Source of the DNA: Verrucomicrobiota bacterium JB024 | Lineage (GTDB): Bacteria; Verrucomicrobiota; Verrucomicrobiia; Opitutales; Cerasicoccaceae | Length of the DNA: 50,728 nucleotides | NCBI GenBank assembly: GCA_030673825.1 | Contig: JAUTCS010000042.1 | Span: forward strand, 1-50,728 | Reading direction: 5' to 3' | Part shown: piece by piece, positions 23,890 through 41,887 of the stretch | Position numbering within the stretch: position 1 is the stretch's first letter | Layout of the letters: every line of letters begins with the position of its first letter | The notes under the pieces: model-generated | Seen by the model: the letters and a program-made list of their open reading frames with translations, nothing else | Told to the model about the DNA's origin: nothing | The model's database searches: none | Translations under genes and position numbers: made by a program

Positions 23890-23903
23890 AGACATCGATG
23901 TTA
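23890..23903. promoter_or_regulatory. CATCGATG operator-like site 1
   Basis: GACATCGATGTTAC, read on the minus strand as CATCGATGTCTATA. It lies 26 bases before the start codon and immediately downstream of a TATATA that could be the -10 box (23885-23890). That position, around the transcription start, suits a repressor. Confidence 0.6.
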
Positions 23904-23925
23904 CCTTAACCGCGTAACAAGCCCC

Positions 23926-26900
23926 ATGATGAGAAAAGCCTCCCATACCCCCAGGCGCGGCGGATTCGCCCTGATTGTGGCGATCAGCCTGATGGTCTTT
24001 GTCCTACTGCTCACGCTGTCCCTGAGTTCATTCACGATGGTGGAAACATCCACCAGTGTTCAGCAACGAGCCCATGCACGGGCACAGCTGAACGCGAAGT
24101 TCGGCCTGATGAAGGCAATGGCTCAGCTTCAGGAGATGGCCGGTCCCGACCAGCGTGTGACCGCGCAGGCATCCATCCTCGACAGCGACCCCTCCACAAC
24201 TGACATCGATGGTATTGATACGGCCAAATACTGGACCGGCGTCTGGAACTCCGAATACCCGACCAATGGCGGTAACCCGATCAGCGTACACCAGATCGCC
24301 GACAATGCTTACAACAACCTCGCCAACCGCCGCGCCGACAGCGACGCCGCCAACAGCCGTTTCCTCGGCTGGCTGGTCTCGGGCGAGCTGGATCTGACCG
24401 ACGCCAGAAACTACAACCCCAACGACAACGACGACGCCCTCCTGCTCAGCAACACCGATGCAAACGAAAACGTCTACGCGCGCAAGGTAGCCATCTCCGA
24501 CACCGACGACACCTCCCTCGGCCTCTATGCCTACTGGATCGACGACGAGGGCGTGAAGGCCAAATTCAACATCCGCGATATCCACAAGGAAGAGGCGCAG
24601 AACAATGACGAACGCCGCTACTCCGTCATGGCCGCCCAGCGCAGCGGCGTCGAAAACATGACCCAACTGGCCCAGGCCGGCTTCCCCGTCAACGACGGTA
24701 TTCTCAACAACATGGCCTCCTCGGCCAGCCTGTCCTCCTATTACTCAGCCCAGGGCGCCAACGACGCAACCCTGACCACCCTTGCCCAGGACACCATTCA
24801 CGACCTCACCGCCTACAGCTACGGTCTTCTGACCGACCCCAAACACGGCGGCTTAAAAAAAGACCTCACCTCCTACTTCGAGCAGGCCACAAGCACTGTC
24901 CCCAATGCCCTCGAAGAGCTCTCTTTCTACGTCGACACCAACTATACCTTTGATGACTTCGAACTCAACGAGCCCCGTGTAGCCGATTTCCCGGACCCAT
25001 ACAATGTCTACAGCGAGCCCGGGCCGACGTGGAAAAAGCTCTACTCGTGGTACCACCTGGCAAAAGAGTACAGTGTGGACGAAGCCATCGAGCCTCGCCC
25101 CGCCACCGACACCCAGCAGGGCATCGGCCCGATCATGATCCGCGCCATTGTCGGTTTTTCCCCCGAGGTCGTCCCGGACACAGACGCGGTCACCTCCAAC
25201 GTCTACCTGCGTGTCCACATCGACACCAAGATCGTCCTGTGGAACCCCTACAAGGTCGCACTCGCCCCCCATGACTACGAAGTCGAGTTTATGAGCGGCG
25301 GCAGCCAAACCGCGCTCTTCCCGCAATTCGTCTACGACGACTCAATCACTAATGAGGCCACCGACGCGGCACAGATCGTCACAGTTTCAGATGTGAATCA
25401 TTACCGAGGTTACTACCCAAATGCCATCAAGATCGAGCACAACAATGCCAACACAAACGGGAATTCCTCAGCATCAGTACCTGCGATGAAGGGTGTCTTT
25501 CAGCATCCTCAGATGTCCAGCATGAAAGCTGAGCTGGGCTTAACGGGCGCCGGCGTTATTTTCACGATTCAGGACGCCGCTTTTGAACCCGGCGAGGTCA
25601 AGGTATTCTCGATCAACAACATCAATGACGACGCCTACACTGAAGGCTATACGCTGAGCGAAGGGCTCTATCACGGTTCCGTCTATCTCGCCTACTCCGA
25701 TCCTTTGCCAAGCACGGTAGTGGACGGTGTCGAGGTAGAGTCCAAGCAGAAAGAGACAGACCCTAACACCGGAATCGAAACCGCCAAAACCGAGGTTCGC
25801 TACCCGGCCTTCCATTGGCGCCCTTGGGATACGACCGGTACCGGTGCGTATAACCTCAAGTACTCGAGCCCTTATGGTGAAATCTACGGAGTCGGCCTGC
25901 GCGAGCCTATCGCCGCTGGCGAGGACCGGAACATCCGCATCGGCGGTCTTGTCACAGGCCTGAACACCTATTACTCCCGGCAATTCCGCGAAAACCTGAC
26001 CCGTGCTGAGGCGAATGAAGGAAACGGCAGCGGGAACCTCAGCAACTTCACAGCCCGCACGACCACGCCCATTTTCAATACCCACTTTGATACAGACACC
26101 ACCCGGTCCCTGGAAAACGACTGGAGCGCCGGGCCGAATTTCAAGGCCAAGATCGAGTACAACTTAGACATACTCCCCTTCGACGAAGGCTCCCCTGTCA
26201 CCACGGCTAATGTTCCTTTTGCCGCCGCCATGATTCACTGGAACCCGACCGCCATCGAGTCCCGCCGTCTCGGCTATACCGGTGGCAATGTCATTCCCGG
26301 CCTGTCCTCCTACAACAGCATTGGCTGGACCTCCGGCGTCCGCTACAAAGAATATGGGAACATCACCACGGTGGATGTCAGTGGCACGAACGCCTTCTTC
26401 GGCCGCAGCTTCTCCGAAGCCAACGGGCTGACACACCTGCCCATCATGGATGCCCCCCAGGAAAACCAGCCCATTCTCTCCCTCGGCTTCTTCCAGAACG
26501 CGAACTTTAACCGGCAGGACGCCAGCCCGGGCTACCAGATCGGAAACTCTTTCCCCGAGATCCGCCTGGAAAGCCTGAAAAAACTCTACCGCGACCATGA
26601 TGAGCCTTACTATAACGCTGCCGCCGCCGGTCAGGGCGGGGGCGGTTCGCCGGCCATCGTCGACTCGACCTACCTGCTCAATGACGCACTCTGGGACCGC
26701 TTCTTCCTCTCCACCTACACCGATCCCGAAGACATCAACGACGCCAACTTCACCCCGCCCAATGCCCGTATGACGCGCGTCGTCCCCAATGAGACTGTGC
26801 CCACTGCCGCTCTCAACGACTTCTTCGACATGGCAGCCGCCTACCTCGCGGTCAACGGCGCCTTCAACGTTAACTCAACCTCTGTCGAGGCCTGGAAGGC

Positions 26901-27621
26901 GACACTCGGCAGCCTGAGTGACCTTTCCATCAACGGCAACACCGTCAACCGCGTGGTCTCCCACTATGCGGCCCCCAGCGGAGACTCCAACGCTGCCGAC
27001 GAAACCAATCTCTGGCAGGGTTTCCGCGAATTGACCGACGACCAGCTGACAGCACTGGCCGAGGCAATGGTTACACAGGTCAAAACACGCGGCCCCTTCC
27101 TCTCCATGGGCGAGTTCATCAACCGACGACTGGCCGAAGAGACTGATGAAACCAGCCGCCGCGGTGCCATGCAGGCCGCGATCGAGGCCGTCGATTACTC
27201 CGGCAACGCGATGTCTGCTGACGGCATCAACGCCACCCCCGCCAGTGTTTTCAACATGAACGATTTCACGACGGACAGCGAGATGGATGCGATCATGTAT
27301 CAGGAAAAAGCGGCACGCACACACCGTTATGCCGGCGTGCCGGGGTGGGTCAAGCAGGGGGACATCATCCAGGCCCTCGGCCCCTCCCTCACGGTACGTT
27401 CAGATACCTTCCGCATCCGCGCCTATGGCGAAACGCTCGATCCGATCACGGGGGACAAGATCGCCAGTGCCGTCTGCGAAGCCATTGTCCAGCGCGTTCC
27501 CGCGCCTGTCAGCCCCAACAGCACTGACGCAGACACCCTCGAATACTACGAGCCCAGCGACACCCTCGGTCGCAAGTTCGAGATCGTCTCCTTCCAATGG
27601 TTACCCTCTGACCAAATCTAA
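23926..27621 (+). CDS. Verru_Chthon cassette protein A-like, pilin-type N-terminus
   Basis: A 1231-residue protein. The N-terminus RRGGFALIVAISLMVFVLLLTLSLSSF is a type IV pilin/prepilin-like leader: a basic region, a glycine before a hydrophobic helix, then an amphipathic Ala/Gln-rich segment. This, the large size and the Asn/Asp-rich beta-type body match the family called Verru_Chthon cassette protein A (TIGR02600), which has no known function. It is presumably processed and anchored in the inner membrane or assembled by a secretion/pilus machinery. Normally proteins B, C and D of the cassette, each with prepilin leaders, accompany it; none is here. The next gene overlaps its stop by one base. 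A CATCGATG site precedes it, and a second lies inside at 24204-24211. Confidence 0.8.
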   Translation: MMRKASHTPRRGGFALIVAISLMVFVLLLTLSLSSFTMVETSTSVQQRAHARAQLNAKFGLMKAMAQLQEMAGPDQRVTAQASILDSDPSTTDIDGIDTAKYWTGVWNSEYPTNGGNPISVHQIADNAYNNLANRRADSDAANSRFLGWLVSGELDLTDARNYNPNDNDDALLLSNTDANENVYARKVAISDTDDTSLGLYAYWIDDEGVKAKFNIRDIHKEEAQNNDERRYSVMAAQRSGVENMTQLAQAGFPVNDGILNNMASSASLSSYYSAQGANDATLTTLAQDTIHDLTAYSYGLLTDPKHGGLKKDLTSYFEQATSTVPNALEELSFYVDTNYTFDDFELNEPRVADFPDPYNVYSEPGPTWKKLYSWYHLAKEYSVDEAIEPRPATDTQQGIGPIMIRAIVGFSPEVVPDTDAVTSNVYLRVHIDTKIVLWNPYKVALAPHDYEVEFMSGGSQTALFPQFVYDDSITNEATDAAQIVTVSDVNHYRGYYPNAIKIEHNNANTNGNSSASVPAMKGVFQHPQMSSMKAELGLTGAGVIFTIQDAAFEPGEVKVFSINNINDDAYTEGYTLSEGLYHGSVYLAYSDPLPSTVVDGVEVESKQKETDPNTGIETAKTEVRYPAFHWRPWDTTGTGAYNLKYSSPYGEIYGVGLREPIAAGEDRNIRIGGLVTGLNTYYSRQFRENLTRAEANEGNGSGNLSNFTARTTTPIFNTHFDTDTTRSLENDWSAGPNFKAKIEYNLDILPFDEGSPVTTANVPFAAAMIHWNPTAIESRRLGYTGGNVIPGLSSYNSIGWTSGVRYKEYGNITTVDVSGTNAFFGRSFSEANGLTHLPIMDAPQENQPILSLGFFQNANFNRQDASPGYQIGNSFPEIRLESLKKLYRDHDEPYYNAAAAGQGGGGSPAIVDSTYLLNDALWDRFFLSTYTDPEDINDANFTPPNARMTRVVPNETVPTAALNDFFDMAAAYLAVNGAFNVNSTSVEAWKATLGSLSDLSINGNTVNRVVSHYAAPSGDSNAADETNLWQGFRELTDDQLTALAEAMVTQVKTRGPFLSMGEFINRRLAEETDETSRRGAMQAAIEAVDYSGNAMSADGINATPASVFNMNDFTTDSEMDAIMYQEKAARTHRYAGVPGWVKQGDIIQALGPSLTVRSDTFRIRAYGETLDPITGDKIASAVCEAIVQRVPAPVSPNSTDADTLEYYEPSDTLGRKFEIVSFQWLPSDQI
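24201..24214. promoter_or_regulatory. Intragenic CATCGATG site
   Basis: TGACATCGATGGTA inside the Verru_Chthon-type gene, about 280 bases after its start. On the minus strand it reads CATCGATGTCA, matching the 11-base core of the intergenic sites at 35912, 37242 and 37382. It may be an auxiliary operator for looping or a chance match in the Asp-Ile-Asp-Gly codons. Confidence 0.35.
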
Positions 27622-28364
27622 TGCGACTCTCTCCTCTCATCCGCACCTATATCCTAACGAGCCTTTGCGGCCTCGTACTAGCTTGTCATCTCTCCGCCCA
27701 GACGCAGCAGCCCGTTTTCCGCTGCCAGTTGCGCACACTCGGTTGGCAGGGTGTCCCCTCAGAGCTCTACCTCAGGGATGGCCAGGGATATGAGCCGATC
27801 GCCATCCGCCGGGGGAAGCTCACCGACTCCTTCGAGTACCGGGGCAGCCCCACCCTGCAACTCTACATCCATGAGCCAATCGTCGTTGAGGGGCAGCTCC
27901 CCCCGCCGCCTGACTTCACCGTGCGCCTACCCGAGAACAGACAGGACTACATATTGTTGGTCATGCCAGGGAACGACAGTGATAACCACAAGCTGCGCAT
28001 TCTCCCCATCCAGGACTCGGCTACTCGCCCACCGGAGGGCTCACTCGCTCTTGTTAACACAACACCAGCGACCCTCGGGCTCGTCATCGGCGAGAAAAAA
28101 TGCGAGCTCCCCCCGCTGAAACTCGAGATAGTACCCCTGCCGGAGTCCAGTGACGTCCCCAAGAACCAAACCAGAAAAACACGGATAACGGTCCCCATTC
28201 GCATTTTCTGGAAGGGCGAAGAGGGCTGGAAAAAGCTCCGCTCGACCTCGCTCTTTGTCATCTCGGGCTCCAATGAATTCATGTTCCTGCATGAACCGGT
28301 CTGGAGCGATGGCCTCAGCGGTTTTGCCCACGATCCCATCCAGTGGACGATGATTTCCCGCTGA
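27621..28364 (+). CDS. Exported partner of the Verru_Chthon-type protein, unknown function
   Basis: I do not recognise this 247-residue protein. It starts on the TAATG overlap with the preceding gene, so translation is coupled and a common function is likely. The N-terminus MRLSPLIRTYILTSLCGLVLACHLSAQ is a signal peptide; cleavage before Gln or lipidation at the Cys of LVLAC are both possible. The body is beta-rich with many Pro residues (PPPPDFTVRLPENRQDYILLVMPG) and a C-terminal FVISGSNEFMFLHEP. It could be a periplasmic or outer-membrane accessory factor of the large pilin-like protein. No homologous family can be named. Confidence 0.8.
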   Translation: MRLSPLIRTYILTSLCGLVLACHLSAQTQQPVFRCQLRTLGWQGVPSELYLRDGQGYEPIAIRRGKLTDSFEYRGSPTLQLYIHEPIVVEGQLPPPPDFTVRLPENRQDYILLVMPGNDSDNHKLRILPIQDSATRPPEGSLALVNTTPATLGLVIGEKKCELPPLKLEIVPLPESSDVPKNQTRKTRITVPIRIFWKGEEGWKKLRSTSLFVISGSNEFMFLHEPVWSDGLSGFAHDPIQWTMISR

Positions 28365-28389
28365 GGGAAAATGCGCGCATAAATGCAAC

Positions 28390-28411
28390 GTGTAGTGATT
28401 GTTCGCTACAC
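28390..28411. terminator. Weak hairpin between convergent genes
   Basis: Arms GTGTAG/CTACAC with a 10-base loop, located between the stop of the exported partner protein and the stop of the sulfatase. It could serve both strands as a terminator, but there is no U-run of note. Confidence 0.35.
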
Positions 28412-28439
28412 TGTTTGAAAACATGCCCAAGCTAACAGT

Positions 28440-29801
28440 TCACTCCGGAAGCGGAAAACTGTCCCCCGTATCCTCGACCCAGCGGCGCAGGCGCTTGAGC
28501 AGGCGTTCGCGGACTTCGCGGTAGCGGGAGTTGTGCGCGAGGTTGACCTCTTCGTACGGATCCTCGTTGAGGTTGAACATCAGCCACGGCACGCGCTCCA
28601 GGCAGACGAGCTTCCAGCCGTCGTCCGTCACCACGCCACGCCAGGGCTGGTCCACCGAATCGCTGTGGCCGGTCGGAACGACGTTTTGTAAATAGGCCGA
28701 ATCGGGCCGCTCGATCACCGGGCCGCCACGGAAATGCAGCGGGGAAAGATCACGCCCCTGCATCCACTCCGGCGGCTTCAGGCCGCAAAGACCAAGCGAG
28801 GTCGGCGCCAGGTCCACGTGGTTGACCAGTGCGGGGGATGCCCCCTGCCGCCCGTAGTAGGGGCTGCCGCCACCCCAGATCATGAACGGGACACGAATAG
28901 ACTCCTCCCACGGGGCGGTCTTCTTGAACTGACCATGCGAGCCGTGTAGATCGCCATGGTCGGAGAAAAAGACGATGGCAGTCGAGTCCAGCAGATTCAG
29001 CCGCGCCAGCGCCTCCATCACGCGCCCGACGTTCCAGTCGAGATTTTCGATCAGCCCGTAGTACCCGGCCAGATCCTGCCGTGCCGCCTGTTCAACGCGA
29101 GGCACAGCGGGCACGTTCGGACGCAGGCTGAGCGTCGCGGGGTTGTGACGGCCCGCAAAGGGCGCAGGGGCGACGTACGGGTTGTGCGGCGGCTGCACGG
29201 AGAGCCCGGCGAAAAACGGTCGTGCCTCGCCGCCCTGCTGCGAACGCTTTTCCAGAAAATCCAGCAACAGGTCCGTCAAGGCATCGGTCTCAAATCCCGG
29301 CAACCGTGTATGCGCAACTTCGCCCGCACCGGCGCGGTGGCCATGCACCCAGCTATCCCAGGGGCTGTTGTTGTTCTCATAGCCAATCCACGTCTCGAAG
29401 CCACCCCGCCGCTCAGGCGGCACGGTGTGGAAAGCCGCCCGCCCCTCGGCCTCCTTGAAACCGTCCACATGCCACTTGCCGAACCACGCCGTCTCGTACC
29501 CATGTTCGGCAAAGGCGTGAGCAACGGTCTTCGTCTCGGTCGGCATCGCGTACTCGTGGCCGGGCACGCACTGGTGAGGATAACGGCTGCTCAGCAGCGA
29601 TCCGCGACACGGGCAGCACAGCGGGTAGCCCATGAGCGCACGCGGGAAGTCCTGCCCCTCCAGCCCGAGACGATCGATGTTGGGCGTATGCACGTTCGGA
29701 TCGCCGTGCAAGCTGAGCGCCTGGCTACGGTGCTGATCACCAAATATCCAGATGACGTTGCGGGGGAGCGAGCTTGGGGCTGAGACGGTCGTAGTGGCCA
29801 T
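28440..29801 (-). CDS. Sulfatase of the formylglycine-dependent (S1) family
   Basis: A 453-residue alkaline-phosphatase-superfamily sulfatase that hydrolyses sulfate esters. The formylglycine motif CxPxR is present as Cys62-Cys63-Pro64-Cys65-Arg66, followed by GSLLSSRYPH, and metal ligands are visible in FGDQHRSQ near residue 20 and FFSDHGDLHGSHG in the second half. The variant CCPCR is unusual, because the second and fourth positions are normally Ser or Thr and Ser. No clear signal peptide is present, so it may be cytoplasmic or use another export route. It is the last gene of the minus-strand glycan-use run, which suggests a sulfated arabinose-containing or pectin-like glycan. Confidence 0.92.
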   Translation of the reverse strand: MATTTVSAPSSLPRNVIWIFGDQHRSQALSLHGDPNVHTPNIDRLGLEGQDFPRALMGYPLCCPCRGSLLSSRYPHQCVPGHEYAMPTETKTVAHAFAEHGYETAWFGKWHVDGFKEAEGRAAFHTVPPERRGGFETWIGYENNNSPWDSWVHGHRAGAGEVAHTRLPGFETDALTDLLLDFLEKRSQQGGEARPFFAGLSVQPPHNPYVAPAPFAGRHNPATLSLRPNVPAVPRVEQAARQDLAGYYGLIENLDWNVGRVMEALARLNLLDSTAIVFFSDHGDLHGSHGQFKKTAPWEESIRVPFMIWGGGSPYYGRQGASPALVNHVDLAPTSLGLCGLKPPEWMQGRDLSPLHFRGGPVIERPDSAYLQNVVPTGHSDSVDQPWRGVVTDDGWKLVCLERVPWLMFNLNEDPYEEVNLAHNSRYREVRERLLKRLRRWVEDTGDSFPLPE

Positions 29802-29863
29802 GGCAATACAATGGAGCTCAGCCGGACGGCTGGCAACAGCGCTTTAGCCGTCCGGTGGTGCGG

Positions 29864-30976
29864 TTATTCCGAAGTGAGCCCGAGACGTTCGCGCTCCTGA
29901 CGCATGGCGCGGGCGTAGTCCGGGCGCGGCTCGGTCGCTCCGAACGGCGCTATGTCGGACTGGTACACATGGAAGAACGTCATCCCCCACTCGTCTCCGA
30001 CCTGAAGCGCCCCGCCGAGCGGGCCGTTGACGGACTCGTCCGGCTCGCTCGAACTCCAGAACATCTCCCCGCCGGTGGTGGCATAATTGGACAGCGCCCG
30101 GAAATGGTACACCATCGGCGCGGCGTGGTCGCCGGGCTTCTTCATGTCCTGCTTCTCGAACCAGATGGCGTTGAGATAGGTGTTGATGAAAAGCGCCCGG
30201 TCGCCGAAGACCTCCAGCGCGTAGGCCTCGACCGCCAGCGGCACCTGCATGGTCTTTTTCGTGCCCTTGTCGCCGGGGATCATGGCGATGTTGATACAGA
30301 CGGGCTTGTGCGTCCAGCACTTCGCGTAAAAGTCGATCACGCGCTTCCACGCATCGATGATCTTGCGCGCCGAGTAGCCGCTCTTTTCACGGAAGTCCTC
30401 GAAGTGCTCATCCTTGATCCGGTAACCCATCTCGATGGCCTGCCCTCCGGGGCCGCTCAGCATCAGGTAGCCGACGTTCGAGTCATCGCCGTAGCGCTCA
30501 GCCACCTTGCCGATAAAGGTGAACCACGGGTCGAGGTATTCATCGGTCCACGGCAGCGGATAGACGACCTTCGCGGCAGCGTTGTTCGCGCTCATCCCGG
30601 CATGCATGTGCTGGGAGGGGTTGGTCCAGGTCGGGCAGTTGTCTATGACCCACTGCGGCGCGTAGTGGCCGCCGAAAAAGCCGAGGTTGACGACCTTGCC
30701 CTCGCGGCGGGCCACGTCGAGACAGTTATCAATCAGCTCCCAGCGGATATTGCCCGGCTCGGGCTCGATCTCGGCCCACGGCATGTAGAGCGTAGCCCCA
30801 TCGATGTAGTCGAGCTCGAAGCACGGGGGCACGCCCTGGCGCAACGCGTGCGGGGCCCACATCAGGCTATAGATACCACGCGGACGCCACTGCTCGTCAA
30901 CCGGACCGGACTGTGCCCGGCACGGCGCCACCGCCAGCAGGACGGCGGCGCACACCCAAAGGGATACGATTTTCAC
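29864..30976 (-). CDS. Exported TIM-barrel protein, glycoside hydrolase-like
   Basis: A 370-residue protein with a signal peptide (MKIVSLWVCAAVLLAVAPCRAQ). The body begins RGIYSLMWAPHALRQG and contains YMPWAEIEPEPGNIRWELIDNCLDVARREGK, the loop-strand pattern seen at the start of GH42/GH-A type barrels (WxxxEPxPGxYxW). GYLMLSGPG and, later, MFWSSSEPDES would be strands near the active site. I cannot place it in a CAZy family, and the acid/base Glu is not certain. Its start codon lies three bases after the stop of the upstream beta-sandwich gene, so translation is coupled. It is probably a glycosidase of the arabinan/pectin locus. Confidence 0.72.
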   Translation of the reverse strand: MKIVSLWVCAAVLLAVAPCRAQSGPVDEQWRPRGIYSLMWAPHALRQGVPPCFELDYIDGATLYMPWAEIEPEPGNIRWELIDNCLDVARREGKVVNLGFFGGHYAPQWVIDNCPTWTNPSQHMHAGMSANNAAAKVVYPLPWTDEYLDPWFTFIGKVAERYGDDSNVGYLMLSGPGGQAIEMGYRIKDEHFEDFREKSGYSARKIIDAWKRVIDFYAKCWTHKPVCINIAMIPGDKGTKKTMQVPLAVEAYALEVFGDRALFINTYLNAIWFEKQDMKKPGDHAAPMVYHFRALSNYATTGGEMFWSSSEPDESVNGPLGGALQVGDEWGMTFFHVYQSDIAPFGATEPRPDYARAMRQERERLGLTSE

Positions 30977-30979
30977 GGC

Positions 30980-31855
30980 TTAGTTCTGGATTTCGATGGA
31001 GTGAATGTTGAGCGTGACCCCGTAGCTGGAGTTGCTCATAATGTCGCCGACAACGAGGCGCAGGCGCTTGATGTCCAGCGAGCTCACCAGCTTCGAGGCG
31101 GGGAAGCTGCCGGCAGCCATCGTGTTGCGGGTCTTGAGATTTTTCAGCTCAAAGGAGAACTCGCCCCGGGAGCCGTCGTACTTCATCGCGTACTGATAGG
31201 TGTCGGTGCTGTTCAGCTTGGCGGCGGACGCCCCGGTCCCGACGACCCAGTTCTTACCATTGCCGCTGAAGCTGGCAACCGTACCGGTCGTGCCGGACTC
31301 GTCAGCCAGGTAGCGGACGTGCGCCTGCATATTGTGCAGGATATTCATCCCGAGCACCATGCTGGGCTTGGCGGACAGCGGGGCCTGAAGCTGCCCGCGA
31401 ATCGGCTGGAACTGATCCAGCGCCCACGACTTGGCGCCGACAGACTCGCCGCCAACGAGGGCGACGTACACGCCCGAACCATCCCCGATATCGGGTACGG
31501 AAAAGGTCACGGTCCACTCTAGCGTCTTGCCCTCGGCCTGCACGGGAGCAGCCTGGCCGACCCAGGAAAAGGGCTGCCCGTTCTTGCCGTTCGTCGTCAG
31601 TTGAAGCATCTTCGTGCCATCCACCGGGTTGCTCACGATGGTGCCACCCGCCGTCGCGCCGGTGGGCGCGTAGCATTGGAAGATGAACGGCCCGTCCTTG
31701 GCGTTCGGGAACTTCTCACCGGGACTGAGTTTGGTTCCAGCTGAGAAGGAGGAGAAATCGCAGGTCTGCGCGATAACTGGCTGTGCGAACAGCAACAGCG
31801 CGGCCCCGAGGGCCAGCGGGCTGACGCGTGTGATCAGGTGAGGGAACTTTTTCAT
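30980..31855 (-). CDS. Exported beta-sandwich protein of unknown function
   Basis: A 291-residue protein with a clear signal peptide (LALGAALLLFAQPVIAQ). The body is beta-rich with Gly/Ser/Asn-rich turns (LQLTTNGKNGQPFSWVGQAA, EWTVTFSVPD, RLRLVVGDIMSNSSYGVTLNIHSIEI), resembling LamG or polysaccharide-lyase-like jelly rolls. The start was set at MKKFPHL, since an alternative 50 codons upstream adds an Arg/Ser-rich stretch overlapping the previous gene. It lies between the GH51-like gene and the TIM-barrel gene and may be a carbohydrate-binding or lyase-like component. Function is not established. Confidence 0.75.
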   Translation of the reverse strand: MKKFPHLITRVSPLALGAALLLFAQPVIAQTCDFSSFSAGTKLSPGEKFPNAKDGPFIFQCYAPTGATAGGTIVSNPVDGTKMLQLTTNGKNGQPFSWVGQAAPVQAEGKTLEWTVTFSVPDIGDGSGVYVALVGGESVGAKSWALDQFQPIRGQLQAPLSAKPSMVLGMNILHNMQAHVRYLADESGTTGTVASFSGNGKNWVVGTGASAAKLNSTDTYQYAMKYDGSRGEFSFELKNLKTRNTMAAGSFPASKLVSSLDIKRLRLVVGDIMSNSSYGVTLNIHSIEIQN

Positions 31856-31898
31856 GGGAGGACTGGTTCGGATTACTGGAGGTTTAAAGTAAAGGTGG

Positions 31899-34307
31899 CT
31901 ACTCGGCAACAGAGGAGTCTTTCGGCAGGACGAGGCCGAGCACGGAGTTGGCCGGGACCGGCAGCGGTTCGCCCGGCTTGAAGCTGAACGTACCCTCAAA
32001 TACACGGGCCAGCTCGATGTCGTTTTCCGTGCCGGTCAGCGCATGCGCGGTGGATTGCAGGACGTAGCCGCCCTCGCCTTTCTTCAGGCCGGGGAGCTCG
32101 GGCATGACCGAGACGAAGTCCTCCGCGCCACGGTTGATCAGCACGAGGCCGTAGCTGTCGGACCGCTCGAAGACCACGGCCTTGAGCTCATCGGTCTCGC
32201 CCGCCACAGGGTAGCGGCTGTCACCGAGGGCCTCAGCAAAGGCCACGTACACGCCGTAATCCGGGCGCACGCGCGAGGGCCGTTTCTTGCCGCGGCTCGG
32301 CCCGCACATCGGGGTGAAATAATAGTTCTCATACAGGCACCAGCGGTTCGCGCCGAGGACGTTGGGGTCGTTCAGAAACTCGCGCACCATCCCGGCGACC
32401 ATAACGGCAGTGCCCATGGAAGACATGACGTTCTTGCCGCCGCGCGCGCCCATGCCGTACTCGCTGATGATGAGGGGCAACTCCCAGCCGACCTGCGTCT
32501 CGATCTGCTCGCTCGCGGCATCGACCAGGCGCCCGGTCACGTCAGCGTTTTTCATCAGGCCCTCAAACCATCCCTGGGACGGCGCAAGCTCGGGCGCGCC
32601 ACCACCGATATAGGTGTGGATCTGCACGAAGTCAGCCGCTTCGCCACCGGCGGCGAGCCCTTTGTTCATCCAGTCCGCGAGCACGTGGCCGTTAAAGCCG
32701 ATGAGGATATTCGGGTCGCGGGCCTTCATCGCCTCGACGTAGAGCGGGAAGGCTTCGCCGTACACCTCGGGGTCACACGAGCCCACCGGGTCGGCGCCCC
32801 AGGTTTCATTACCCACTTCCCAGTAAATGACGTTGTAGGGCTCGGGATGGCCGTTCTCGGCCCGGAGCTTGCCCATGGGCGTATCCACGGAACCATTACA
32901 GTACTCGACCCAGTCGGCGGCCAGCTGGATGCGGTCCTCGGCGCTCATCAGGTAGCCGGGGATCCACTCCTTCTTGCGCTGGCCCTTTTCCTGTATATCG
33001 GCAATGACGTTCTCGGGCGTGTCGTAGAGGAAGGCCGTGGTGATGATCGGGGTCATGCCCTCGCGCTCGCACATGCGCAGGAACTCGTCCACCCCGTAGA
33101 TCACGGGCGCGGTGTAGCTGCGGTTGTAGTAAGTCTGCTCGGGGCGCTCGGAGATCGGGCCGATGGCCTCGCGCCAGTCGAAGACGTCCGCATTACAGCC
33201 GCCCGGGTAGCGCATGAAGGTCACGTTCATGGGCCGGAGCGTTTCCATAAATTCACTGTCCATCTCACCGGTCTCATGATCGGTCACCATGTCGAACTCG
33301 CCCCAGTTGATGTTGTTACCGAAAATCAGCTTGTTCACCTCGACCGGCTCACCGGCGAGAGACAGGTCCACCTGGGCACCCGGCGCCGCGTCGTCGGCCA
33401 GGGAGGCGGCCCGGTTGCGCAGCCCGGCGATCTCCACCGCGCGGTCATCGGCGGCCTCGCCACTGAGCGCATCCATCCCGCCGGTCAGCTCGGCGGCATA
33501 ACCGGCGAAGTCGCGCGAGAGTGCCGCAGCCAGCGACTCCCCCTCGGCGCCCGCGGACACGGGCACGGCAAGAAGAGCCTCGCGCATAGCGGGCGTCCAG
33601 GCCGGGCGCGGGATGCGCACGTCGTCGCAATAAATCTCATACGCGCCACCAGGGGTTGCCACCAGGCGGGGTGGATGGTCCTGAATCATCTGGGCCAGCC
33701 GGTCCTTGGCAACCTGGGCGCTGTGCTTTTTAAATTGCTCCACGGTGCGGATATACGGGTCGATGTACACGCGCAGGTTCGAATAAGCGACCTGCCCCGA
33801 GGCGTCTTCGAAGCCGATACGCAGGTTGGCCGACTCCAGGTCGGCGGGCATCTGCGCGGCATAGCTGCGCAGGCTCCACTGCGTCGTCCCCTGGATGTCC
33901 GTGCCGTCGCCCTTGGCCCAGCGGCGCCCCTCCGGTGAAAGCCAGCTGAGCATGAGCTTGGCGCAGTTCCACGGGGCCTGGCCCACGCGCACGTCGTCGG
34001 CCTTGACCATTGCCTCCACGATGACCAGTTTACCGGCGATCTTGTCCGCCGGGAGGCTGTGGATCGCGGATGCCCACATGGCATGATCGGTTTTAATAAA
34101 TAAGCCCATGGAACCGTCGGCCAGCGCCTCGGTCCAGGTCTCCGCAGTGCCCCACTTGGCATCCCAGCCCGGCAGCGTGGAGTCGGTGAAATTCTCTTCG
34201 AGGATGATCTGAGGCTCGGCATAGGCAGCCACCGACAGCAAAAGCGATACCGCGGTTGCGGAACAGAGGGCCCGAAGCGAGCTGACTGAAGGCAGGGATT
34301 TCATCAT
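31899..34307 (-). CDS. GH51-like alpha-L-arabinofuranosidase, exported
   Basis: An 802-residue exported enzyme. A signal peptide covers about residues 1-30 (TAVSLLLSVAAYAEP), and a CBM-like jelly roll about 32-185 (IILEENFTD...SNLRVYIDPY). The catalytic barrel has FMRYPGGCNADVFDWREAIGP (RYPGG near 366-370), the acid/base Glu in WEVGNETWG near residue 501, and a nucleophile candidate in LIISEYGMG. A C-terminal beta-sandwich follows. These are hallmarks of GH51, which releases arabinose from arabinan, arabinoxylan or arabinogalactan. Start codons ATG-ATG at 34304-34307 were preferred to an upstream start that overlaps the transporter gene. The leader before it is pyrimidine-rich with no Shine-Dalgarno. 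Confidence 0.88.
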   Translation of the reverse strand: MMKSLPSVSSLRALCSATAVSLLLSVAAYAEPQIILEENFTDSTLPGWDAKWGTAETWTEALADGSMGLFIKTDHAMWASAIHSLPADKIAGKLVIVEAMVKADDVRVGQAPWNCAKLMLSWLSPEGRRWAKGDGTDIQGTTQWSLRSYAAQMPADLESANLRIGFEDASGQVAYSNLRVYIDPYIRTVEQFKKHSAQVAKDRLAQMIQDHPPRLVATPGGAYEIYCDDVRIPRPAWTPAMREALLAVPVSAGAEGESLAAALSRDFAGYAAELTGGMDALSGEAADDRAVEIAGLRNRAASLADDAAPGAQVDLSLAGEPVEVNKLIFGNNINWGEFDMVTDHETGEMDSEFMETLRPMNVTFMRYPGGCNADVFDWREAIGPISERPEQTYYNRSYTAPVIYGVDEFLRMCEREGMTPIITTAFLYDTPENVIADIQEKGQRKKEWIPGYLMSAEDRIQLAADWVEYCNGSVDTPMGKLRAENGHPEPYNVIYWEVGNETWGADPVGSCDPEVYGEAFPLYVEAMKARDPNILIGFNGHVLADWMNKGLAAGGEAADFVQIHTYIGGGAPELAPSQGWFEGLMKNADVTGRLVDAASEQIETQVGWELPLIISEYGMGARGGKNVMSSMGTAVMVAGMVREFLNDPNVLGANRWCLYENYYFTPMCGPSRGKKRPSRVRPDYGVYVAFAEALGDSRYPVAGETDELKAVVFERSDSYGLVLINRGAEDFVSVMPELPGLKKGEGGYVLQSTAHALTGTENDIELARVFEGTFSFKPGEPLPVPANSVLGLVLPKDSSVAE

Positions 34308-34398
34308 AGGGAGGAAGGGCTTGAGGATTATTGCGGGTGATTTCGATTCACCGGAGATAAAGGAAGGGTTGAGGATTTCGTAAAAAACGGGGGCGAGC

Positions 34399-35835
34399 TC
34401 AAACCACGCCACGGCGGGCTTCCAACTGGGTACGGATTTCCATAACCTTGCCGTGAGTGAGTTTATAACGGCTCAGCATGAAGAGGGCAATCACCCATAG
34501 GACCATCGGCATGAAAACGTACCATTCGAGCATGCGCTGAAGGACCTCGGGCGGCTGAGCCTTGCCGTACTTGACCACGTCGAAGCCTGTCAGCGTAATG
34601 ATAACGCCAGAGACCCCCGTCGTCAGTGTCATGGCCAGCTTGAAGAACCATGAGGAGATGGACGAGAAACTGCCCTCGCGGCGCTCGCCGGTGTTGAGCT
34701 CGTCGTAGTCGGCGATGTCCGCCTGCATGGACGGGATCAGCATCCAGATGGCCGAGCCAAAGGCCGACAAAAACACATGCGGCACAATCTGCAGGTACGG
34801 GTGCTCGGGTGTGTAGCAAAAGTAGATCAGGATGTTCGCGATAAAGCCCAGCAGAATCGTCAGGGCCAGGGCGTGGCGCTTGCCGAGCTTTTCCGAGACC
34901 CAGGCCCAGAACGGCACGCTCAGAATACCGGGGATCAACGTCGCCGTACTCTTCCACCCCTGAATGATCCCGGCAGTCTGGATGTCCCCGCTGTTGACGT
35001 AGTAGATATTCAAATACATCCCCAGTGCGCCCACCATGCTTGAGCCGATCACCTGCAAGAGATAGACCGACATGAGCACCATGAACGGCTTGCAGGTCAG
35101 CGTTACCTTCATGCTGTGGACGAGGCCGATTTTTTTCTGTTTGGCGGCGTCCTTCTGGTAATAGCGTTCCTTGACGAAGAGCCCCGGCAGTATCCCGAAC
35201 AAAATCGCGCACACGCCGATAAAAATAGAAATGTAGCTCATCCCCCGTGCCACGTCCGGCTCACCCGTGACGGGGTCGGCAAATATCTGCATCGAGGTCA
35301 GAGCGAGCATCCAGCCGGCGAATAGTCCCGCCAGCTTCTCGAAGACGGCCCGCACCGCCGTCACGCGCGTGCGCTCGTTATAGTCGGGGGTCAGCTCCAT
35401 CCCCAGGCTGTAGTAGGGCATGCCCCAGATGGTGGAGGCCGTGTACAGCAGCACCCCCGTCACGATCATGTAGGCGATAATCGTTGTATCGCTCCAATCG
35501 CGCGAGGCCTGCCAGACCCAAGGCAGGATGAAGCCCGCCAGCACCGAGCCGATAATGATAAAGGGACGACGGCGGCCCCAGCGGGTCCGGGCGTTGTCGG
35601 AGATGTTCCCCATCACCACGTCCGTGACCGAGTCCCACAGCCGGTAGAACATCAGCACTCCACCGATCACTGCCGGGCTGATCCCCATCATGATGTTAAA
35701 CACCGGGTTGAACATCTGGAGCGTCACACCGGTAACGAACTGACCGGTCATACAACCAGCCCCGTAGGCGACCTTTTGTCCAACGGGTACTCTGTCTTCC
35801 GGGGCAACGACGGGCTTATGTTTCTCCTGACTCAT
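34399..35835 (-). CDS. GPH-family sugar:cation symporter (MFS)
   Basis: A 478-residue inner-membrane transporter with 12 predicted helices. The loops WDSVTDVVMGNISDNARTRWGRRRPFI and ELTPDYNERTRVTAVR are typical of the glycoside-pentoside-hexuronide:cation symporters (MelB/YicJ type). The substrate is probably an arabinose-containing oligosaccharide or another pentoside released by the downstream enzymes. It is the first gene of the minus-strand run and stands behind CATCGATG site 2, 77-90 bases before its start codon, so its expression is likely coordinated with the glycosidases. Confidence 0.92.
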   Translation of the reverse strand: MSQEKHKPVVAPEDRVPVGQKVAYGAGCMTGQFVTGVTLQMFNPVFNIMMGISPAVIGGVLMFYRLWDSVTDVVMGNISDNARTRWGRRRPFIIIGSVLAGFILPWVWQASRDWSDTTIIAYMIVTGVLLYTASTIWGMPYYSLGMELTPDYNERTRVTAVRAVFEKLAGLFAGWMLALTSMQIFADPVTGEPDVARGMSYISIFIGVCAILFGILPGLFVKERYYQKDAAKQKKIGLVHSMKVTLTCKPFMVLMSVYLLQVIGSSMVGALGMYLNIYYVNSGDIQTAGIIQGWKSTATLIPGILSVPFWAWVSEKLGKRHALALTILLGFIANILIYFCYTPEHPYLQIVPHVFLSAFGSAIWMLIPSMQADIADYDELNTGERREGSFSSISSWFFKLAMTLTTGVSGVIITLTGFDVVKYGKAQPPEVLQRMLEWYVFMPMVLWVIALFMLSRYKLTHGKVMEIRTQLEARRGVV

Positions 35836-35911
35836 GCGGGTACAGACGGCGTGCGGGGTTGCAACATGCCCTCAGGATGGCGAATCCATCCCCGCCCTGA
35901 CAAGCGAAAAA

Positions 35912-35925
35912 GATCATCGATGTCA
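35912..35925. promoter_or_regulatory. CATCGATG operator-like site 2
   Basis: GATCATCGATGTCA, followed by CATT. The 13-base CATCGATGTCACA is identical to site 5. It lies 77-90 bases upstream of the transporter start codon, in the promoter region of the glycan-use operon. Confidence 0.65.
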
Positions 35926-36048
35926 CATTGTTATCCTGCATGAAGGAAACAAGCCACATGCCAACATTTTAAATACGATATACGACTTCACAGAAATGCG
36001 TCATTTCACACGCATACTCATCCATCATCAATGGAAAAGATCCATTAT

Positions 36049-36062
36049 TGACATCGATACCC
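36049..36062. promoter_or_regulatory. CATCGATA operator-like site 3
   Basis: TTGACATCGATACC; on the minus strand TATCGATGTCAATA, which shares ATCGATGTCAATA with site 4 and differs only in the first base of the core. It is about 130 bases away from site 2, a spacing that could allow looping. Confidence 0.5.
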
Positions 36063-36141
36063 TAGGCGACGAGGGCACCGCGTCCCCGCCCAGAAAGCAG
36101 ACCACCGTCACCCTACTGGCAACAGGTACGCACTCATTTTA

Positions 36142-36157
36142 TAACCGGACGCGGTTA
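36142..36157 (-). terminator. Hairpin over the esterase stop codon
   Basis: Arms TAACCG/CGGTTA with a 4-base loop. On the minus strand the TAA stop forms the start of the hairpin, followed by TAAAATG. There is no U-run, so it is terminator-like at best. Confidence 0.35.
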
Positions 36158-37099
36158 ATCGGCCATCGCCCGTTCGATCAGAAAGGCGATGATATCCCCG
36201 CCCTTGACCGGATCCTCCGCATTGACACGGTAGGCGACCATACAGACGGCTCCGCGCTCATCGGCGACCTGCTTGAAAGCGACGCCCCAGCGGGCCGAGT
36301 GCGTGGAGTCGTACTTGCCGGTGCCTGGGTCGTTCAGCGGCACCCCGTAGGTCAGAAAGATCGGCGGGTCCCCCGCATCGACCAGCGCAGCCGGAGAAAC
36401 GACCGGAAAGTATTCGGCCAGTTGCTCACGGTTATCGAGAAAGACCTGGAAGTTCGGCTGGTTAAAAGCGTGGCCACCGTAGGTCAGCCCCTCGCCCACC
36501 CACTCGCGCATCTGCGCCGGGTCGAGTGAAGTCTGCGCCCCCATCCCGCCAATGCCGTTCACGCGAGTGGACTCCCGCTCAACGGGATCGTCCGAATCCG
36601 GATCCGCCATGTCATCAGAGAGTCCCAGCCACAGTGAGCTGAATGCCCCCGCCGAGCCCCCGAAGACCACCACCCGGTCCGGGTCCAGGTTCCAGTCAGC
36701 GGCATGATAGCGGACAAACTGTAAAGCACGGCGGGCATCGCCGAGCGGCATCAGTACGGGCGGATAGACGCCTTCCTGACGCGCCTGCGGAATGAAGCGG
36801 TAATTGATCGACACGACCGCCACCCCAGCGTCGAGAAAGCGCTTCAGCTGGGAAGCGTTAAGTTTCTCTACCTTGTCCCCGTTGACCCAGCCGCCACCGT
36901 GAATGAAAAGCGCCACCGGAAATGGTCCCTCGCCCGCAGGCAGGTATACGTCGAGTTTCTGCATCGGGTCCTCACCATAGGCGACATCGGAGGCAGTCGG
37001 TGCCGGAAGAGCCTGGGCCCACGTGCAGGCAAAAAACATCAGCGCAAAGGCCGCGACAGACAGCGGAGAACAAAAAGAGACAACACGGGTGATTTTCAT
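36155..37099 (-). CDS. Exported alpha/beta-hydrolase esterase
   Basis: A 314-residue exported esterase. A signal peptide covers about residues 1-30 (VAAFALMFFACTWAQAL). KLDVYLPAGEGPFPVALFIHGGGWV provides the HGGG oxyanion hole, and FGGSAGAFSS carries the nucleophilic Ser, with DSTHSARWG a likely His region. It resembles the carboxylesterase/feruloyl-esterase-like (BD-FAE) group that removes acyl groups from plant or algal polysaccharides. It reads toward the transporter operon, 319 bases away, and has its own upstream region with site 4 and a 17-base palindrome. It is probably a periplasmic accessory enzyme of the same glycan pathway. Confidence 0.85.
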   Translation of the reverse strand: MKITRVVSFCSPLSVAAFALMFFACTWAQALPAPTASDVAYGEDPMQKLDVYLPAGEGPFPVALFIHGGGWVNGDKVEKLNASQLKRFLDAGVAVVSINYRFIPQARQEGVYPPVLMPLGDARRALQFVRYHAADWNLDPDRVVVFGGSAGAFSSLWLGLSDDMADPDSDDPVERESTRVNGIGGMGAQTSLDPAQMREWVGEGLTYGGHAFNQPNFQVFLDNREQLAEYFPVVSPAALVDAGDPPIFLTYGVPLNDPGTGKYDSTHSARWGVAFKQVADERGAVCMVAYRVNAEDPVKGGDIIAFLIERAMAD

Positions 37100-37241
37100 A
37101 ACAGCAGATCTAGATTAACCAAAGTCTTGGACCGAAGAAACGCGGCCACCGATGCCCTTTCGACACTGCGCAACCGTCGGTATCGTCGGGCGCGAACTCA
37201 TCCGCTCGGGGTAAAGGCATAGACGCGTCCATGATGATTTT

Positions 37242-37255
37242 GTTCATCGATGTCA
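37242..37255. promoter_or_regulatory. CATCGATG operator-like site 4
   Basis: GTTCATCGATGTCA, continuing AATAC. On the minus strand the sequence contains TATTGACATCGATG, so a TTGACA -35 box for the esterase gene overlaps the site. That is the expected position for repression of the esterase promoter. Confidence 0.65.
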
Positions 37256-37259
37256 ATAC

Positions 37260-37276
37260 TTGTCCGAGTCGGACAA
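37260..37276. promoter_or_regulatory. Palindrome TTGTCCGA-G-TCGGACAA
   Basis: A perfect 8-bp inverted repeat with one central base, 7 bases from site 4. The form suggests the operator of a second dimeric regulator. No other copy was seen in the window. Confidence 0.5.
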
Positions 37277-37375
37277 AATCAAGTGTGGCCACCCACGAAG
37301 ATTAGAATTCACGATGCGGGGCTCTCGATGACTGCCTCACCTAAGGCTATCCGGATTTCAAAGTTGAGAAACGCC

Positions 37376-37404
37376 TTGACGATACATCGATGTCACACAT
37401 AAAA
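37376..37404 (+). promoter_or_regulatory. Promoter of the 991-residue enzyme with embedded operator (site 5)
   Basis: TTGACG (-35) at 37376-37381 and CATAAA (-10) at 37398-37403. Operator-like site 5, ATACATCGATGTCA at 37382-37395, fills the spacer. A protein bound there would block RNA polymerase, so repression released by a sugar is the natural reading. Confidence 0.55.
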
Positions 37405-40501: not shown

Positions 40502-40576
40502 GCGCATGTGAGTTCATCGCGCAAATTTCCCAGCGCAGACTTGACCTGCCGCAGGACAAAGTTCAAAACACCCATT

Positions 40577-41887
40577 ATGCAAACGATTTTAAAATACGGT
40601 GCCATCGGCGACGGCAAGACCCTGAACACCACGGCGATTCAGGCCGCCATCGACGCGGTGGCAGAGAGCGGAGGCGGCACGCTGCTCGTCCCGCCGGGGC
40701 ACTACGTCACTGGCACGCTCGTACTGAAGAACAATCTCACGCTGCGACTGGAGCCCGGCGCGGTGATTGTAGGCTCGAGCAACCCCGACGACTACCCCCC
40801 GACGACGTTCCACCACCACCTCTTCGGCTACGTCAACTGCCTCCTCTACGCCTTTGACGGCGAAAACATCCGTCTGACCGGCGACGGCGTGATCGACTTC
40901 AACCACGAGGCCTTCATGGACTTTACGCGTCCTTACCCGGGACGGAACGCCACCTTCGACGGCATGAACGAGCGCCAGATCGGCGAGGCCCCCGTCACCC
41001 CCGGCAAGCGCCCGCGCCTGCCCCTGTTTTTTCACCACTGCAAGCATGTGCGCGTGGACGGCCTGCGCCTGATCAACTCGCCCTGCTGGACCGTCACCGC
41101 CAGCTGCTGTCAGGACGTGAAGATCGAGAGCCTGACCATCGATAACAACCTGCTCGCCCCCAACAACGACTGCGTGCACATCTGCGGCAGTCAGGACGTG
41201 GTCATCCGCGGCTGCGTCTTCTCGGCAGCGGACGACTGCATCGCCGTTACCGGGATCACTGACAGCAGCTTCGTGGCGGATCGCATCGTCATTTCCGACT
41301 GCACCATGCGTGCGCGCTCCTCGGCCATCCGGCTGGGCCACTTCGACGGCAAGGTCCAGAACGTCGTCATCTCCAACATCACCGCCTACGAGTGCAACCG
41401 CGGCCTGAGCATCTTCTCCGGGGACGGCGGCTGGGTCGAAAATGTCCGGGCCACGAACCTCGTCATGCAGACGCAGATCTACGCCGGGGGCTGGTGGGGC
41501 AAGGGCGAGCCCGCCGTCATCTGCGCCATCGGCGAATCTGCCCGCATCGCCAACATCTGCCTTTCCAACATCGAGGCCCGCTCCGAAAACTCGATCACCC
41601 TCATCGGCCAGGCCGGAAACGTCCGGGACATTTCGCTCATCGACTGGCGCCTGCGCCTGCGCGCGGGCTGGAACCGCCCCGTATACGGCAGCACGCTCGA
41701 CCTCGCCCCCTTCAATGAAGTGCAGATTGAGGTCGAGAACGGCGAAACCACCCGCATCCCGTGGTTGCATGCCCGTGAGGTCAACGGCCTGTACATGCGC
41801 AACGTCCGCGCCGAGATCGAGCCGGAGGAAACCGCCGAGCTCGACATCTCGCCCATCCAGCTGGACGTAACCCTGCGGGAAGACTAA
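40577..41887 (+). CDS. GH28-like polygalacturonase, apparently cytoplasmic
   Basis: A 436-residue right-handed beta-helix enzyme. YGAIGDGKTLNTTAIQAAIDA is the family N-terminus. Catalytic motifs are NNDCVHICGSQDV (the usual NTD loop with Asn for Thr), AADDCIAVTG (the DD pair) and a downstream RLGHFDG in the GHG position. GH28 enzymes hydrolyse galacturonan or rhamnogalacturonan linkages with three Asp residues. There is no signal peptide from this start or from the alternative start 23 codons upstream, so it probably acts on imported oligosaccharides in the cytoplasm. It is separated from the preceding gene by a terminator and must have its own promoter. Confidence 0.88.
   Translation: MQTILKYGAIGDGKTLNTTAIQAAIDAVAESGGGTLLVPPGHYVTGTLVLKNNLTLRLEPGAVIVGSSNPDDYPPTTFHHHLFGYVNCLLYAFDGENIRLTGDGVIDFNHEAFMDFTRPYPGRNATFDGMNERQIGEAPVTPGKRPRLPLFFHHCKHVRVDGLRLINSPCWTVTASCCQDVKIESLTIDNNLLAPNNDCVHICGSQDVVIRGCVFSAADDCIAVTGITDSSFVADRIVISDCTMRARSSAIRLGHFDGKVQNVVISNITAYECNRGLSIFSGDGGWVENVRATNLVMQTQIYAGGWWGKGEPAVICAIGESARIANICLSNIEARSENSITLIGQAGNVRDISLIDWRLRLRAGWNRPVYGSTLDLAPFNEVQIEVENGETTRIPWLHAREVNGLYMRNVRAEIEPEETAELDISPIQLDVTLRED

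Follow-up and report, generated by a model that had tools for sequence, protein, structure and literature searches.

Which protein, if any, reads a short palindrome that recurs in front of genes for glycan use and in front of a gene for a pilin-like protein? This question is raised by contig C42 (JAUTCS010000042.1; 50,728 nucleotides, analyzed over its full length and referred to below as the window) of Verrucomicrobiota bacterium JB024, whose draft genome (G000) comprises 4.6 Mb in 163 contigs. The repeated palindrome, CATCGATG, is part of a longer unit, TGACATCGATGTCA: a 14-base even palindrome that is centred on CG, has the form of a LacI operator and is regarded here as a putative operator. 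Very probably, this unit is the operator of one LacI/GalR-family repressor encoded on another contig (C1:24536-25546), which would control a scattered glycan-use regulon that includes the pilin-like gene.

Seven copies of CATCGATG lie in the window, a number that none of 100 dinucleotide shuffles reached (mean 0.97). The four copies listed there at 23893, 35915, 37245 and 37385 are exact in position and all intergenic, and the related CATCGATA is indeed present at 36052. The 11-base form CATCGATGTCA is exact at 35915, 37245 and 37385, and on the minus strand it is present at 23890 and 36049 with a single change in each case. Three more copies of CATCGATG, absent from the initial annotation, all fall within genes (24204, 30352 and 30799). 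The copy at 24204 coincides with an exact minus-strand CATCGATGTCA at 24201, inside the pilin-like gene; those at 30352 and 30799 match the flanks of the 14-mer at zero and one of six bases, respectively, and were rejected as operator sites and assigned to chance matches in coding sequence. Five of the six window sites are intergenic. In its form (an inverted repeat with a central CG, located in the promoter regions of the window target genes) the shared element is a putative operator of the LacI type.

Genome-wide, the bare CATCGATG occurs 104 times, and the shuffle rate of the window (0.97 per 50.7 kb) predicts about 88; because this count is near chance, CATCGATG alone is not the unit and was rejected as the motif. 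The flanks separate the copies: With at least three of the six outer bases matching the 14-mer, 15 of 17 copies are intergenic, with fewer than three only 1 of 45 (62 of the 104 copies examined; Fisher 2e-11; intergenic calls from a simple gene caller, by which 12% of the sampled DNA is intergenic). As some stretches had been fetched for their long-form sites, the count was repeated on the first 50 copies as listed, which gave 9/11 versus 1/39 and, without the contig of the window, 5/6 versus 1/37. The genome-wide scan for the 11-base motif that the initial annotation had proposed points the same way: CATCGATGTCA is intergenic in 10 of its 11 genome copies, two of these ten reaching a few bases into the end of a called gene. 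When up to two changes are allowed, TGACATCGATGTCA is found at 25 sites, 17 of them intergenic and spread over eleven contigs. In the same-family relative G001, which has no orthologue of the proposed regulator at E<=1e-30, the same search yields 31 sites, of which 2 are intergenic (P 1.2e-6 for the comparison). G001 served, together with intergenic placing, as control in place of the reversed pattern, which was set aside, since the forward form is apparently preferred in coding sequence and is abundant in genomes both with and without the regulator. The perfect 14-mer is absent from the JB024 genome and present in five of 372 genomes of the order, three of them among the nine with a regulator orthologue (P 1e-4). 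The other two, G191 and G205, yielded no orthologue at E<=1e-60; the perfect 14-mer of G191 is located inside a gene, and in G205 it falls within a gap that spans about 1.2 kb.

We then scored the window with position matrices built from sites outside it. A matrix from 13 sites elsewhere in this genome assigns 17.5-21.4 to the five initially reported sites and the site at 24201, and the next window match reaches 11.8. With a matrix derived from 23 sites in other genomes, five of the six sites come out on top (15.8-18.2) and the one at 35912 scores 9.9, below a coding match at 11.1; in both cases the six sites are among the seven best window matches. In 60 simulated windows, the fifth-best score was reached 0.00 and 0.08 times on average for the two matrices. 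Both matrices are symmetric by construction and hence provide no evidence for palindromy.

The initial annotation had seen no transcription factor in the window and had expected a regulator, LacI- or GntR-like by operator form, to be encoded elsewhere. Within what was searched, the LacI family in the case of the regulator, both statements are supported: None of 30 window open reading frames (ORFs) has a transcription factor match in Pfam (about ten further ORFs were not run), none of the 58 LacI-family helix-turn-helix (HTH) matches of this genome is on C42, and a LacI gene adjoins such sites in this and related genomes, here on a different contig. Very probably, the regulator of TGACATCGATGTCA is this gene at C1:24536-25546, whose product combines an N-terminal LacI HTH (PF00356, E=2.3e-7) with a periplasmic-binding-protein-like ligand domain (PF13377, E=2e-32), both over the cut-off. 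Between it and a divergent sulfatase gene lies TGGCATCGATGTCA, a site at the regulator's own promoter; a tandem pair 21 bp apart precedes the next gene, which encodes an ADP-ribosylglycohydrolase homologue, and a further site follows about 9 kb on. The protein is closest to RbsR, CytR and PurR (RbsR structure 9ny7, E=1.5e-40; NCBIfam CytR, E=4e-54), with which it shares length, domains and an end-to-end alignment. It differs from them in its recognition helix, SPKTAAR, and reaches none of the NCBIfam equivalog cut-offs for RbsR, CytR and PurR (best 183.9 of 436 bits); their operator sequence presumably differs from TGACATCGATGTCA as well.

Orthologues at E<=1e-60 are present in nine of the 372 genomes of the order (JB024 among them), and the TGS_VER1 locus makes ten; the hosts include Coraliomargarita sp. 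SDUM461004 and Pelagicoccus mobilis, both of class Opitutia. All ten carry the recognition helix SPKTAAR or SPKTVAR, and two distant homologues that were read differ from SPKT. Sites with up to two changes are found in the DNA near eight of the ten orthologues. Altogether, the 202 kb around them hold 23 such sites (20 without the three of this genome), where 1.9 are expected from 26 loci of distant homologues with 26-30% identity. In P. mobilis, all eight sites with at most one change are on the regulator's contig, within 42 kb (C90:157782-199513) that also hold the regulator gene. The corresponding fractions are 5/8 in PL25a, 2/4 in Coraliomargarita, 1/2 in G009, 1/1 in BROCD003, 1/1 in G006 (a single-contig genome, with the site beside the regulator), 0/3 in UBA4506 and 0/1 in G076. 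In G009 and Coraliomargarita, perfect palindromes are present among the sites at the orthologue; UBA4506 has a perfect site before an ADP-ribosylglycohydrolase gene, on a contig other than that of the regulator.

From the sites, their intergenic placing and their clustering near the regulator in relatives, all read from sequence, we infer how the system would work, that is, binding, repression, the ligand and the glycan. In the absence of its sugar ligand, a repressor dimer would bind the palindrome, in many cases on top of or adjoining the -35 box, and thereby block transcription; many sites overlap a TTGACA-like -35 box, partly since the operator itself contains TGACA. An oligosaccharide or sugar derived from a sulfated glycan would then release the repressor. 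Relief by a sugar ligand is proposed here by analogy with the LacI family, for which ligand-free DNA binding is described as the usual mode in the part of the survey by Ravcheev et al. (2014; PMC4052901) that we draw on. The regulon would include the repressor gene itself and the divergent sulfatase gene, the adjacent ADP-ribosylglycohydrolase-like gene and, scattered over several contigs, genes for additional sulfatases, glycosidases, symporters and exported PEP-CTERM proteins. Its members in the window would be the symporter operon, the esterase gene, the genes for a 991-residue protein and a GH28-family protein and the pilin-like gene, in which the site at 24201, 311 bp behind the one at 23890, could serve as an auxiliary operator, as in lacZ.

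Several observations weigh against this assignment. The window sites differ from the 14-mer consensus by two to three changes, and 8 of the 25 sites with up to two changes in this genome are coding, as is one of the eight sites of P. mobilis, which is inside a sulfatase gene. A site on C159 is 537 bp away from the next start, and the target list was drawn up without the neighbour genes of C16:18155 and C129:1392. Within 10 kb of the orthologue, UBA4506 and G076 have no site with up to two changes. The training sites of both matrices were chosen by likeness to the 14-mer that the window had suggested, which makes this test partly dependent, and the control loci of distant homologues come from other phyla. 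Moreover, the numbers of sites with up to two changes are similar in nine regulator-bearing genomes (20-49) and 14 others searched (10-52). Because raw counts are no higher with the regulator, it is position and closeness to consensus that carry the argument, not number. Finally, a second LacI gene, on contig C158, has the variant TTACACCGATGTCA upstream, and the upstream check of paralogues covered 30 of the 57 other LacI genes, with C158 among the 27 outside it.

The last point bears on the alternative that we take most seriously, albeit as an improbable one: A LacI-type operator might be recognized by two or more of the 58 LacI paralogues, such as the one on C158, and the window genes would then belong to a different or overlapping regulon. 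Besides the sheer number of paralogues, this reading draws on TTACACCGATGTCA being located between the C158 gene and a divergent gene that weakly matches a PEP-CTERM family and on the window sites deviating from the consensus at the outer bases. However, the recognition helix of the C158 protein (VSVATVSRAL) is a different one, and among the 30 other LacI genes covered, none has a site with up to three changes within 420 bp upstream of the HTH and none has an SPKT helix. In addition, the best matches of two window targets among the proteins compared are encoded behind perfect sites in the regulator cluster of Coraliomargarita.

Far less probable are two explanations that dispense with a repressor altogether. 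The sites could be a promoter-related or DNA-modification signal, that is, back-to-back TTGACA -35 boxes or an ATCGAT methylation site; the outer TGACA does create a TTGACA box at many sites, but a -35 box requires no palindrome with a CG centre, and this reading does not explain why the sites cluster near a single regulator and next to glycan genes, which leads us to assign it only a very small likelihood. Smaller still is the likelihood that a codon-favoured 8-mer has come to lie in spacers by luck. Chance is in keeping with the near-random genome count of bare CATCGATG, with the coding location of 44 of 45 of its poor-flank copies and with the similar counts in genomes with and without the regulator, and it stands for the copies at 30352 and 30799. 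For the 14-mer it is refuted by the flank test; moreover, the long form is in intergenic excess, matrices from elsewhere rank the window sites near the top, and the sites cluster around the regulator orthologues. We therefore retain the single LacI-family repressor encoded on C1 as the preferred explanation.

Having considered the regulator, we turned to the genes that it would control. The initial annotation had placed a shared operator before glycan-use genes and a pilin-like gene; the operator and the gene set are supported, while the name Verru_Chthon given to the pilin-like gene is not, and the glycosidase identity of the 991-residue protein is weakly supported. The pilin-like gene (plus strand, 23926..27621, 1231 residues) is a proposed target and belongs to a large paralogous family. 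Its predicted operator AGACATCGATGTTA (23890..23903) lies 22 bp before the ATG at 23926 and is the top intergenic window match of both matrices (21.4 with sites of other contigs, 17.1 with those of other genomes); the probable auxiliary operator TGACATCGATGGTA (24201..24214) scores 20.4 and 18.2. A small partner gene (plus strand, 27621..28364) is likely part of the same transcript.

The predicted operator GATCATCGATGTCA (35912..35925), the weakest of the six by the matrix from other genomes, is located 76 bp before the minus-strand symporter operon, and TGACATCGATACCC (36049..36062) is found at a distance of 137 bp in the same intergenic region. The operon starts with a GPH-type sugar:cation symporter of the MFS_2 family (34399..35835; PF13347, E=1e-64), which is 46% identical to a Coraliomargarita symporter located behind a perfect site. 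It continues with an alpha-L-arabinofuranosidase-like protein with an ASD1 domain by Pfam (31899..34412), whose 58% identical paralogue is in a cluster on C119 that also carries sites, with a protein without assigned family (30980..31855) that shows weak similarity to PEP-CTERM proteins of JB024, and with a GH42-like protein (29864..30976; PF02449, E=2.7e-5, over the cut-off), and it ends with a sulfatase (28440..29801; PF00884, E=5.4e-48).

The exported esterase of the BD-FAE family (minus strand, 36155..37099; PF20434, E=1.1e-29) is preceded at 142 bp by the predicted operator GTTCATCGATGTCA (37242..37255), which at the same time lies 195 bp upstream of the called start of the 991-residue gene on the plus strand (37442..40417). 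Before the latter gene, ATACATCGATGTCA (37382..37395) is situated between TTGACG and ATAAAA. The proposal that the site fills a -35/-10 spacer at 37376-37404 is thus borne out insofar as TTGACG-17-ATAAAA can be read around 37385, but a strict promoter scan found no sigma-70-type site there or in any other spacer of the window. The 991-residue protein is weakly GH42-like (Pfam E=0.0028, below the curated cut-off), and comparison with solved structures gave nothing convincing (two matches, at E 0.14 and 0.34). The gene for a GH28-family protein that follows it (plus strand, 40508..41887; PF00295, E=7.3e-16) probably shares its transcript, judging from the spacing. Because arabinofuranosidase-, GH28-, esterase- and sulfatase-like genes occur together, this gene set suggests an acylated and sulfated, pectin- or arabinan-like polymer as the glycan.

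No NCBIfam model named Verru_Chthon matches the pilin-like protein at E<=10 (release 20.0; the presence of such models in the library was not checked). Its N-terminus reads as prepilin-like and hydrophobic, and the best NCBIfam match is GspK, far below the cut-off both for the window protein (E=0.18) and for its Coraliomargarita homologue (E=0.06); it looks like a GspK-like pseudopilin. Counted as aligned pieces, the matches to this family number 38 here, between 21 and 59 in each of eleven relatives and 3 in G008; G302, G312 and G360, all three of which have the regulator, have none at E<=1e-20. A close clade with 38-50% full-length identity comprises five members: the window gene, a copy beside the regulator (C1:34199-37753), the Coraliomargarita gene beside its own regulator and one copy each in G009 and G007. 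Two of the five have the predicted operator in front: the window gene and that of Coraliomargarita, the latter with a perfect site between the pseudopilin and ADP-ribosylglycohydrolase genes. None is found before the C1 copy, before the copy of G007, which lacks the regulator at E<=1e-30, or before that of G009, a genome with the regulator (475 bp to the contig end examined); the link between operator and pilin-like gene is hence based on two of five members. The intragenic site at 24201 has no counterpart in the Coraliomargarita homologue. Among 18 copies fetched from this genome, the window copy alone has a site with up to two changes no more than 500 bp from its start. A homologue of the small partner gene is within 165 bp of 15 of the 18, the window copy included, and a sulfatase is in the fetched stretch for ten; some copies also have a LacI gene nearby.

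Beyond the window, the neighbours of the sites in this genome are sulfatases (one on C1, two divergent ones on C119), the ADP-ribosylglycohydrolase homologue on C1, an SSF symporter (C147), an MGH1-like glycosidase (C119), PEP-CTERM proteins (C69 and C129) and several proteins without a family. PEP-CTERM exported proteins are encoded behind sites at L044 6685-7686 and L050 3912-4946, and a weak match to that family at L055 4183-5046 (C158). The most constant target is the ADP-ribosylglycohydrolase gene, present in the stretches from seven of the ten regulator genomes and absent from those of TGS_VER1 (5 kb only), BROCD003 and G076. A site is at its start in six of the seven, overlapping the called start by a few bases in PL25a; in G006 it precedes three genes upstream of that gene. 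The gene of this genome (PF03747) is at L042 9882-11387 and its homologues are in L118, L121, L125, L129, L130 and L226; no solved structure matches its product. The Coraliomargarita homologues of the symporter and pilin-like genes of the window both stand behind perfect sites. Nucleoside-hydrolase and sortilin/BNR-repeat genes, assigned by Pfam, lie behind a site near the regulator in P. mobilis, PL25a having the same arrangement as judged by similar N-termini (L129 14144-17453 and L130 12598-15893). In this genome, a sortilin/BNR gene (L050 5382-7616) is near a site, with its start on the far side. Paired sites in this genome are spaced by 21, 122, 132, 137 and 140 bp; a helical phasing was considered and discarded, as no common phase exists beyond the 21-bp pair. 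A different perfect CG-centred palindrome, TGTAATCGATTACA, is located 197 bp before the LacI HTH at C15:35298 (L062) and is perhaps the operator of this paralogue.

How does the proposed regulon compare with known ones? The LacI/GalR sugar regulons surveyed in PMC4052901, as far as the survey was covered, likewise have CG-centred even palindromes, a site in the promoter of the regulator gene itself, numerous sites less than 200 bp before start codons and tandem sites about 22 bp apart (21 bp here at C1 and 23 bp in PL25a). The survey differs in its scope, its main text being without the word Verrucomicrob, and here the sites are spread over eleven contigs beside sulfatases, PEP-CTERM proteins, an ADP-ribosylglycohydrolase-like gene and a pseudopilin. 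The portion of the literature covered describes neither an operator nor a LacI regulon for the use of polysaccharides by Verrucomicrobiota, nor ADP-ribosylglycohydrolases in polysaccharide loci, and contains neither the exact 14-mer nor the term Verru_Chthon; the parts of PMC8857213 and PMC12915301 covered contain nothing on the C1 regulator. We thus appear to be dealing with a new LacI regulon of an already known type, with an unusual target list.

For the pseudopilin, the closest precedent is Verruconatronum alginivorum, for which the parts of PMC13274419 covered report 67 pseudopilin homologues, one of them in an alginate gene cluster, and over-expression of a pseudopilin on alginate in one proteome replicate per treatment. 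By description, both organisms have many pseudopilin paralogues per genome. Those of V. alginivorum are PulG-like and known from the proteome, with no operator or LacI regulator in the parts covered, whereas the protein discussed here is GspK-like and linked to its operator by sequence alone. As far as covered, that report fits the idea of a glycan-induced pseudopilin. Tentatively, and as a possibility that we favour less than its opposite, each glycan cluster of the marine relatives might have its own long GspK-like pseudopilin and small exported partner, switched on by the LacI protein of the cluster together with enzymes and transporter and forming a glycan-specific device at the tip of a pilus or type II secretion system for capture or export; TGACATCGATGTCA would then be the switch for one such set.

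The regulator, the probable operator and the target list are common to Coraliomargarita, Pelagicoccus and this genome, which makes the regulon testable in cultured species. By this list, a pseudopilin and an ADP-ribosylglycohydrolase-like enzyme probably share their control with sulfatases and glycan transporters.

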